Shown: piece by piece, positions 9,150 to 14,877 of the stretch
Layout: every line of letters begins with the position of its first letter
How positions within the stretch are numbered: position 1 is the first letter of the stretch
Assembly: GCA_012730045.1 (NCBI GenBank)
Contig: JAAYBR010000105.1
Location: 1-35,835 of the forward strand
Length of the DNA stretch: 35,835 bases
Direction of reading: 5' to 3'
DNA from: Candidatus Hydrogenedentota bacterium
GTDB taxonomy: Bacteria > Hydrogenedentota > Hydrogenedentia > Hydrogenedentales > CAITNO01
Notes under the pieces: generated by a model
The model's database searches: none
Seen by the model: only the letters and a program-made list of their open reading frames with translations
Told to the model about the DNA's origin: nothing
Position numbers and translations under genes: made by a program

Positions 9150-9178
9150 TTGGCGCCTCCGCCGGGACGGTATATACT
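9150..9178 (+). promoter_or_regulatory. Sigma-70-like promoter of the SGNH hydrolase gene
   Basis: -35 TTGGCG and -10 TATACT separated by exactly 17 bases. Transcription would start near 9185, giving a 5' leader of about 23 bases containing the ribosome site. Confidence 0.55.
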
Positions 9179-12234: not shown

Positions 12235-12304
12235 GGCGATGAATCCTTAGAGTAATGCGGGCGGGGAAACATGACGAGCCAACCCCGGGCGCGATTGGAC
12301 CTCG

Positions 12305-12313
12305 ATTATAGCA
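12305..12313 (-). promoter_or_regulatory. Extended -10 promoter of hydG
   Basis: On the minus strand the sequence reads TGCTATAAT, a perfect extended -10 element. No good -35 is present, as is usual for this class. Transcription would begin near 12298, giving a leader of roughly 64 bases. The msrBA gene diverges on the other side. Confidence 0.55.
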
Positions 12314-12432
12314 ACATTCGCCTGAGAGGAATCATTCCGGGCAAGTTCAGCCGCTGCGGGGACTTCCGGAGCGCCCCCCCGCCGGGAATACAGGCACCGG
12401 CGCGGCGTGTCTCTGGGGCAGAGGAAATGACC

Positions 12433-13395
12433 ATGAACACCCCGGCCAAATGGATGCTCGCAGCGGCGGTCTTGATGTCCGTCGCGGGGTGGGGCGCGTC
12501 CCAGGAGAACGGCATGCGACCCTTGACCCCTGAGGAGGAGCACGTCATCGTGCAAAAGGGGACCGAGCGCCCCTTCACCGGGAAATATTACCGCCACACC
12601 GAGGCGGGCACCTACACCTGCCGGCGCTGTGGCGCGCCGTTGTACCTGTCCCAGAGCAAATTCGACGCGGGCTGCGGCTGGCCGAGTTTTGACGACGAGA
12701 TCCCCGGCGCGGTGACGCGAAAGCCCGACGAGGACGGCATGCGCACGGAGATCCTGTGCGCGAAATGCGGCGGGCACCTCGGTCATGTGTTCCTGGGCGA
12801 GAATTTTACCCCCAAGAACACTCGGCACTGTGTGAACTCGGTATCCCTCGACTTCGTGCCGCAGGGCGCGGATCAGGCCGCGCCGCAGGCAGTTCCGCAG
12901 CCTGTGGTCGCGGGCCCCCAGCGCGCGATTTTCGCCGGTGGGTGTTTCTGGGGCGTGGAGTACTATTTCCAGAACGCTCCGGGCGTGATTTCAACCCGCG
13001 TGGGATACATCGGCGGCGGCAAGCCCAACCCCACCTACGAGGAGGTGTGCAACCACGGCACCGGCCATGCCGAGGCGCTGGAGGTGGTGTTTGACCCGGC
13101 CAAGACCACTTTCGAGGCCCTCGCGCGGCTCTTCTTCGAGATACACGATCCCACCCAGGTCAACCGCCAGGGGCCCGACATCGGCGACCAGTACCGGTCC
13201 GTCGTGTTCTACCTCGACGATGCCCAGCGGCAGACCGCCGAGCACCTGATCGGCCTGCTGCGCGAAAAGGGCTTCAACGTGGCCACGCAGGTCGTCCCCG
13301 CCGGGGAGTTCTGGCCCGCCGAGGACTACCACCAGCAGTACTACCAGAAAAAGGGGTCCACCCCCTACTGCCACGTCCGCGTCAAGCGCTTCTGA
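12433..13395 (+). CDS. msrBA: Exported bifunctional peptide methionine sulfoxide reductase, MsrB-MsrA fusion
   Basis: 320-residue fusion that reduces both R- and S-methionine sulfoxide in oxidised proteins. A signal peptide covers about residues 1-22 ([18 protein letters not shown]). The MsrB domain (about 30-145) has zinc-binding pairs CRRC (63, 66) and CAKC (109, 112), the [11 protein letters not shown] block, and catalytic Cys133 in RHCVNS. A short Gln/Pro/Ala linker leads to MsrA, with catalytic Cys171 in AGGCFWG and the [22 protein letters not shown] block. The order MsrB then MsrA is less common than A then B. Export suggests envelope protein repair. ATG 12433 is chosen because GAGG is eight bases upstream; the ATG at 12427 is too close to it. 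Confidence 0.93.
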
Positions 13396-13471: not shown

Positions 13472-13480
13472 TGCTATGAT
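13472..13480 (+). promoter_or_regulatory. Extended -10 promoter upstream of the NAGS-like gene
   Basis: TGCTATGAT, an extended -10 element one base from consensus, with no clear -35. Predicted start of transcription falls at about 13487, the A of an ATG. Confidence 0.5.
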
Positions 13481-13486
13481 ATTTTG

Positions 13487-13504
13487 ATGCGAACCCGGTC
13501 TTGA
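13487..13504 (+). CDS. Possible five-residue leader peptide, two of five residues Arg
   Basis: ATG CGA ACC CGG TCT TGA would encode Met-Arg-Thr-Arg-Ser. It begins where transcription is predicted to begin, six bases after a TATGAT box, so it would be translated without a leader. Its stop lies two bases before a strong terminator hairpin, and the next gene makes N-acetylglutamate, the first arginine precursor. This fits an attenuation leader in position and content, but the ORF is tiny and could be chance. Confidence 0.25.
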   Translation: MRTRS

Positions 13505-13506
13505 GG

Positions 13507-13550
13507 ACGCCCCCGATCCGGCACGGTGCCGCGCGCGGGGGCGTGTTTTT
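13507..13550 (+). terminator. Strong intrinsic terminator in the leader of the NAGS-like gene
   Basis: Perfect 9-bp outer stem ACGCCCCCG / CGGGGGCGT enclosing an inner CGGCA-cgg-TGCCG hairpin, followed by GTTTTT. It lies 111 bases after msrBA and only 20 bases before the next ATG, downstream of a candidate promoter. It could end msrBA transcripts, attenuate the downstream operon, or both. Confidence 0.8.
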
Positions 13551-13570
13551 CATGGAGTGCCGTTGCCGTG

Positions 13571-14068
13571 ATGGATGAGGTGAGAAAACCCCGGCTGACC
13601 GAGGTGGTGGCGATGAAGTCCCTGCTGGACGAGGCCGCCGCCGCGGGTCAGGTGCTGCCCCGGCAGCTCCCGGAACTGTACGAGAACGTGCGCGATTTCC
13701 ACGTCCACGCCGACGACAGCGGCGTGGGCGGCCTGGTGGCGCTGCACATTGACATGGTGGACCTGGCGGAGGTGCGGTCGCTGGCGGTGCGCCCGGACCT
13801 GCGGGGGCGCGGCATCGGCCGGCGGCTGGTGGAGGCGGTGCTCGCGGAGGCGTCTGACCTGCACATCACGCGGGTCTACGCCTTCACCCGGATGCCGGAG
13901 TTCTTCAAGAGCCTCGGCTTTGCCGTGGTGGACCGGGCCGAGCTGCCGTACAAGGTGTACAAGGATTGCCAGCGCTGCCCGCTGTATCCCAACTGTGACG
14001 AAATCGCCGTGGCGCGGCGGCTTGACGCCCCCGAAGCCGCGCAGGGAATGGAGGTAATGCCATCATGA
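13571..14068 (+). CDS. argA: Short N-acetylglutamate synthase-like GNAT acetyltransferase
   Basis: 165-residue GNAT-fold protein of the short, stand-alone NAGS type, expected to transfer acetyl from acetyl-CoA to glutamate, the first step of arginine synthesis. Family blocks are clear: LPRQLPELYENVRDFHV (29-45), LAEVRSLAV (65-73), the acetyl-CoA loop RGRGIGRRL (78-86), PEFFKSLGF, and the C-terminal Cys-rich block KDCQRCPLYPNCDEIAV (131-147). No amino-acid-kinase domain is attached. GTG at 13568 is an alternative start, ten bases from GGAG. Its stop overlaps the proC start as ATGA, so the two form an operon of glutamate-derived amino-acid synthesis. A terminator hairpin in the leader suggests attenuation. 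Confidence 0.85.
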   Translation: MDEVRKPRLTEVVAMKSLLDEAAAAGQVLPRQLPELYENVRDFHVHADDSGVGGLVALHIDMVDLAEVRSLAVRPDLRGRGIGRRLVEAVLAEASDLHITRVYAFTRMPEFFKSLGFAVVDRAELPYKVYKDCQRCPLYPNCDEIAVARRLDAPEAAQGMEVMPS

Positions 14069-14877
14069 ACACATGCACGGGAACGCTCGGTTTTCTGGGG
14101 TTTGGCAACATGGGCCTCGCCATTGCGGCGGGTCTGCTGGACCGCAAGGTCTATCCGGCGAAACGCATCCTGGTGTTTGACCCCGAATCGGCCCGGCAGG
14201 CGGCGGCGCGGGAAATGGGCCTGCGGGTGGTGGAGACGCCGCGGGAGCTGGCGGCGGCGGCGGACACGCTGATGTTCGCCGTGAAGCCCCAGGTGTGGCG
14301 CGCGGCGGCGGAGTCTCTCGCCTCGGCGCTCCGGGGGGACGCGCTCGTCCTCTCCATCATGGCGGGCGTGCCCATTGCGGCGCTGCGCGCGGCCCTGGGC
14401 GGGAAGGCCAAGGTCATCCGCATCATGCCCAACACCCCGGCGATGGTGCGGGCGGGCGCTGCGGGCATCGCCCCGGGCCCCGGATGCGGCGAGGCCGACG
14501 CAGACCTTGCGCGGACGGTTTTCGAGGCCGTGGGCGTCGCGGAAATTGTGAAGGAAAAGGACCTGGACGCCATCACCGCCCTCAGCGGGAGCGGGCCGGC
14601 GTATTTCTTTCTGCTGGTGGAGTGCCTGACGAAGGCGGCGGTGGCCGAGGGGCTGGACGAGGCGGTGGCGGCGCGGCTGGCCGCGCAGACGGCGCTCGGC
14701 GCGGGGCGGCTGCTTGCGGAGTCGGGCGAGCCGGCCTCCGTGCTCCGGGAACGGGTCACCTCCAAAGGCGGCACCACCTTCGCCGCCCTGGAGACTTTCC
14801 GCGCCCGCAACTTCGAGGAGACCGTGCTGGCGGCGGTGCAGGCTGCCGCGGCGCGTTCAAGGGAACTCGGGAAATAG
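14065..14877 (+). CDS. proC: Pyrroline-5-carboxylate reductase
   Basis: 270-residue cytoplasmic enzyme that reduces pyrroline-5-carboxylate to proline with NAD(P)H. The N-terminus has the Rossmann motif GFLGFGNMGLAIAAGLL. AVKPQVW and RIMPNTPAMV are typical ProC blocks. The dimerisation domain contains ALSGSGPAYFFLLVECL and the C-terminal signature RVTSKGGTTFAALETF. Length is normal. It is translationally coupled to the NAGS-like gene (ATGA overlap). The next gene begins 67 bases on with its own ribosome site, so the run may continue into the carbohydrate cluster. Confidence 0.96.
   Translation: MNTCTGTLGFLGFGNMGLAIAAGLLDRKVYPAKRILVFDPESARQAAAREMGLRVVETPRELAAAADTLMFAVKPQVWRAAAESLASALRGDALVLSIMAGVPIAALRAALGGKAKVIRIMPNTPAMVRAGAAGIAPGPGCGEADADLARTVFEAVGVAEIVKEKDLDAITALSGSGPAYFFLLVECLTKAAVAEGLDEAVAARLAAQTALGAGRLLAESGEPASVLRERVTSKGGTTFAALETFRARNFEETVLAAVQAAAARSRELGK

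Follow-up and report, generated by a model that had tools for sequence, protein, structure and literature searches.

The stretch analysed here, called the window below, comprises 35,835 nt of contig JAAYBR010000105.1 (assembly GCA_012730045.1, a Candidatus Hydrogenedentota bacterium). It belongs to a draft genome of 4.46 Mb in 155 contigs (G000). Within it, a methionine sulfoxide reductase gene, msrAB, is followed on the same strand by a leader with an extended -10 element, a putative five-codon ORF and an intrinsic terminator, and then by an acetyltransferase gene whose stop codon is overlapped by proC (Table 1). Each leader element named in the original prediction (the -10, an ATG six bases on, the MRTRS ORF with its stop codon, a 9-bp stem, an inner hairpin and T5) is present where it had been placed, and the acetyltransferase ATG indeed lies 20 bases past the last T of the terminator.

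Table 1. Features of the leader and its flanking genes, in window positions
Feature	Position	Strand	Remarks
msrAB, methionine sulfoxide reductase	12271..13395	+	NF004042, 454.5 bits
Extended -10 promoter element, TGCTATGAT	13472..13480	+	Hexamer TATGAT 13475-13480; motif read from sequence
Spacer ATTTTG	13481-13486	+	Between -10 and mini-ORF ATG
Predicted transcription start	13487	+	Base 7 past the -10 hexamer, on the A that opens the mini-ORF; inferred from spacing
Mini-ORF ATG CGA ACC CGG TCT TGA (MRTRS)	13487..13504	+	Five codons; putative ORF, from sequence
Intrinsic terminator	13507..13550	+	Stem, inner hairpin, G and T5; fold -30.5 kcal/mol
Terminator stem arms, ACGCCCCCG / CGGGGGCGT	13507-13515 / 13536-13544	+	Perfect 9-bp GC stem
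Terminator tail		+	Single G, then TTTTT 13546-13550
NAGS-like GNAT acetyltransferase	13571..14068	+	ATG 13571; in-frame GTG 13568 as alternative start
proC, pyrroline-5-carboxylate reductase	14065..14877	+	TIGR00112, 253.6 bits (cut-off 196.75)

The acetyltransferase scores 173.8 bits against NCBIfam NF005840 (PRK07757 family; cut-off 154), a model named only N-acetyltransferase. Its nearest solved structures are PDB 5yge/5yo2 and 6add (amino-acid acetyltransferase; E ~1e-17), structures of the short N-acetylglutamate synthase (NAGS) ArgA of M. tuberculosis. The gene encodes a short NAGS-like GNAT protein, as had been proposed from the sequence alone, and is likely the first gene of arginine synthesis. 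Elsewhere in G000, argC and argJ lie adjacent to each other, and from this pair we infer that the NAGS-like gene could prime the cyclic acetyl pathway. No PF01316 (ArgR) match was found in G000 (97% complete), though argC and argJ are present.

Is there a promoter in front of this gene? Leaders were collected from 54 homologues of the acetyltransferase gene within the phylum, and the motif TGnTAn[AG][AC]T occurs no more than 230 nt upstream of the gene in 38 of them, against 1.6 +/- 1.3 in shuffled sequences. Genome-wide motif and terminator counts were made on 1.57 Mb of the 4.46 Mb of G000, with gene starts and 3'-end assignments from a rough gene caller plus reading by eye. In this sample 96 of the 135 copies of the motif are intergenic, while intergenic sequence makes up only ~12%. 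Conserved at the gene in the phylum and concentrated between genes in the host, the motif lends credibility to a promoter at 13472-13480, with transcription predicted to begin at 13487, which bears out that part of the original prediction. The arrangement TGCTATGAT-N(4-9)-ATG has a single occurrence in the genome. No second -10 of this kind was seen in the sequence between the terminator and the acetyltransferase gene, so polymerase starting at this promoter would have to read through the terminator.

The ATGs of long ORFs in the genome sample show a modest peak 6-8 nt past the -10 motif. In four homologous loci (L004, L005, L006 and L023) the acetyltransferase ATG itself follows TGCTACACT by 8-9 nt, and the gene appears leaderless. 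Taken together, these spacings suggest that leaderless starts are in use; our literature search found no paper linking Hydrogenedentes with leaderless starts. A conserved extended -10 of the form TGnTAnACT at this gene, with apparent leaderless starts in several relatives, should be useful for the annotation of Hydrogenedentota. In another locus, L030 (read as its reverse complement), a perfect 14-bp inverted repeat, GCGCCATGGAGGCG-CCTCCA-CGCCTCCATGGCGC, lies 113 nt ahead of the acetyltransferase homologue. Its first base coincides with the start predicted after TGTTACACT, and an in-frame ATG would fall inside it; it has no T tract.

Folding of 13502-13551 returns exactly the hairpin of Table 1 (z = -3.05). 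A strict search for perfect 9-bp stems with T5 within two bases, on both strands of the 1.57-Mb sample, found eight elements, the leader terminator among them. Six of the other seven stand just after a gene or tRNA, at 3' ends, so perfect stems of this kind appear to mark transcript ends in G000; the seventh lies in an rplJ leader. With only eight such elements in 1.57 Mb, the terminator is, judged by its sequence, more than a chance structure. Fold, rarity and position thus agree with the strong terminator that had been described between promoter and gene. Several other G000 terminators have T6, whereas this one has T5 after a one-base spacer, and termination may therefore be weak. The window has no match at the gathering threshold to Rfam riboswitch, T-box or leader RNA families. 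The rplJ element (L150, minus strand, near 9150), a perfect 9-bp hairpin with T6, is probably an L10 leader. At L167 (near 7861), a candidate second case of promoter, terminator and gene in succession, the -10 is weak.

How widespread is this arrangement? Counting the window's own, terminator-like structures occur in 3 of 43 leaders, against 1.2 expected. Mini-ORF and terminator together are absent from every other leader, including that of the nearest available relative, G002, which belongs to a different genus. There the -10 sits at nearly the same distance from the gene (91 versus 90 nt) and CATGGAGT precedes the gene in both, but the stretch between these two landmarks differs and holds neither mini-ORF nor terminator. 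The original prediction had named lack of conservation in relatives as grounds for refutation; on that point it fails, the closest comparison being with another genus, since G001, the genome from the same genus, has no copy of the acetyltransferase gene, proC or msrAB. Roughly 107 nt ahead of the acetyltransferase homologue in G060 (L073), the same -10 variant as in the window, TGTGCTATGAT has a hairpin and TTTT right behind it (CGGTGGA-ACTTG-TCCGCCG-TTTT), together with a GTG ORF, VAVELVRRFRDCMA, that holds three Arg codons.

Promoter, terminator and gene follow one another on the same strand, and we hold it slightly better than an even bet that the hairpin is a premature intrinsic terminator, specific to this lineage among the genomes compared, and that it limits read-through into the NAGS-like gene and proC. 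Transcription would start from the conserved extended -10 at about 13487, and RNA polymerase would meet the terminator some 50-60 nt later. Many transcripts would then stop near 13550, at a length of about 64 nt, leaving a predicted read-through fraction as the sole source of the NAGS-like acetyltransferase and ProC. On this view the hairpin, added in this lineage, would lower read-through in vivo, and would do so largely regardless of which amino acids the mini-ORF encodes. Against this reading, regulation would normally be expected of a terminator so close to a biosynthetic promoter.

The terminator may in addition form the 3' end of msrAB, a gene that tblastn against the homologous loci places upstream of the acetyltransferase gene only in G000. 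Could the hairpin be simply that, the msrAB terminator, with TGCTATGAT inactive or minor and the acetyltransferase transcribed by upstream read-through or from an unseen start? A terminator of such strength is likewise confined to G000, and the 3' location of six of the seven other elements of its class fits this role. Yet the stem begins 111 nt past the msrAB stop codon, as compared with roughly 30-60 nt for the others, and the conserved promoter lies in between. In G002, moreover, a hairpin with a T tract is lacking within 350 nt of the msrAB stop, as is any TTTT. Given the distance and the intervening promoter, we rank as second choice, and consider rather unlikely, that the terminator serves msrAB alone; it may have come with that gene or serve it.

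If the premature terminator is active, the locus would represent an attenuated arginine/proline-pathway operon in a genome without detectable ArgR, and in a phylum where gene regulation seems to have received little study. What, then, of the mini-ORF? A five-codon ORF alone is not more than chance would give. Its CGA (0.18%) and TCT (0.12%) are among the rarest codons in G000, as expected of non-coding sequence; a rare-codon regulator is the less likely explanation.

Arginine makes up two of the four codons after the start (CGA and CGG, non-adjacent), next to a NAGS-like gene in a genome where ArgR was not found, and it had been proposed that ribosomes stalled on these codons at low charged tRNA-Arg would change the hairpin. 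Scattered Arg-rich upstream ORFs in some relatives, for example MRRGLLRRSVRNS in L016, MNKGRRRPWCVNPN in L020 and the L073 ORF shown above, point the same way; striking as they are, these three fall within the range of shuffled GC-rich leaders. Among upstream ATG ORFs (37 leaders), Arg accounts for 17.0% of codons against 14.2% in shuffles (p 0.08), and when GTG starts are admitted for 16.0% against 14.6% (p 0.12). Neither difference is significant, and the p-values ignore relatedness among the leaders and, if anything, favour the arginine hypothesis. The absence of ArgR is itself not evidence for an arginine attenuator. The argC leader, read by eye, contains neither an Arg-rich ORF nor a terminator. 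In several relatives the acetyltransferase gene itself appears leaderless, which leaves no space for a leader.

Stalling was modelled with a ribosome whose edge lies 11-13 nt past the A-site codon's first base (textbook values, from which the host's may differ). The RNA left uncovered folds at about -29 to -30 kcal/mol when CGA occupies the A site and at -20 to -26 kcal/mol when CGG does, and the terminator stays formed. Stalling at scarce arginine would thus bring more termination, not less, which is the wrong sign. The alternative anti-terminator pairing for which a fold had been recommended did not emerge: there are only weak alternatives, and until the 3' arm has been transcribed no fold is better than -12.5 kcal/mol, as against about -30 for the terminator. 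We regard arginine-specific ribosome-mediated attenuation as very improbable. Sensing of arginine through the five-codon peptide is not supported and should not be carried forward; what stands of the attenuator originally proposed is the promoter, the premature terminator and the NAGS-like gene.

The mini-ORF might still act without amino acid specificity, its translation coupled to attenuation so that read-through reports translation capacity. The stop codon of this predicted leaderless ORF ends 2 nt before the stem, and a ribosome that has reached Ser5 or that codon would cover the 5' arm and prevent termination; in that position the remaining RNA folds at only about -14 to -18 kcal/mol and lacks the 9-bp stem. 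The ATG at the predicted +1 recalls S. meliloti trpL (PMC7298713), and the rare CGA and TCT could slow the ribosome. The polymerase, however, would pass the terminator about 64 nt after the start, so that a ribosome would have little time to initiate on the emerging leaderless RNA, and the arrangement is not conserved in relatives. We judge this coupling distinctly unlikely. A minimal attenuator of this type, in which a rare-codon leaderless ORF sets a 70S ribosome on the 5' arm and read-through needs initiation and release with no antiterminator RNA, seems to us a shade less probable again.

How does the leader compare with known systems? As in attenuators of the trp/his/leu type, a terminator lies between the leader ORF and the first gene, but we found no antiterminator that stalling at regulatory codons would release, and leader ORF and terminator are not kept in orthologous leaders. 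The trpLE(G) leader of S. meliloti (PMC7298713) shares a short ORF with its ATG at the transcript 5' end (here predicted), followed by a terminator that releases a small RNA. Its trpL, however, has 14 codons including Trp and a true antiterminator, whereas here we find five codons with two non-adjacent Arg and no antiterminator. The Pseudomonas carAB leader (PMC4997734) likewise precedes an arginine/pyrimidine-pathway gene and has been proposed to act by attenuation; carAB is a different gene from the NAGS-like gene, and that paper ascribed its attenuation to pyrimidines and its control by arginine to the transcriptional level. The closest parallel for the protein is M. tuberculosis ArgA, a homologous short single-domain GNAT (PDB 5yge, 5yo2, 6add). 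It is the PRK07757 model that the window protein passes, rather than PRK07922 (amino-acid N-acetyltransferase), and NAGS activity is predicted for it by homology. Finally, premature intrinsic terminators in bacterial 5' leaders were surveyed by Naville and Gautheret in 2010 (PMC2965389). In their families the same gene is attenuated in many species, whereas the terminator described here occurs in one genome; in both cases, promoter, short leader, intrinsic terminator and gene follow one another, in a poorly conserved leader whose sensor is not obvious.
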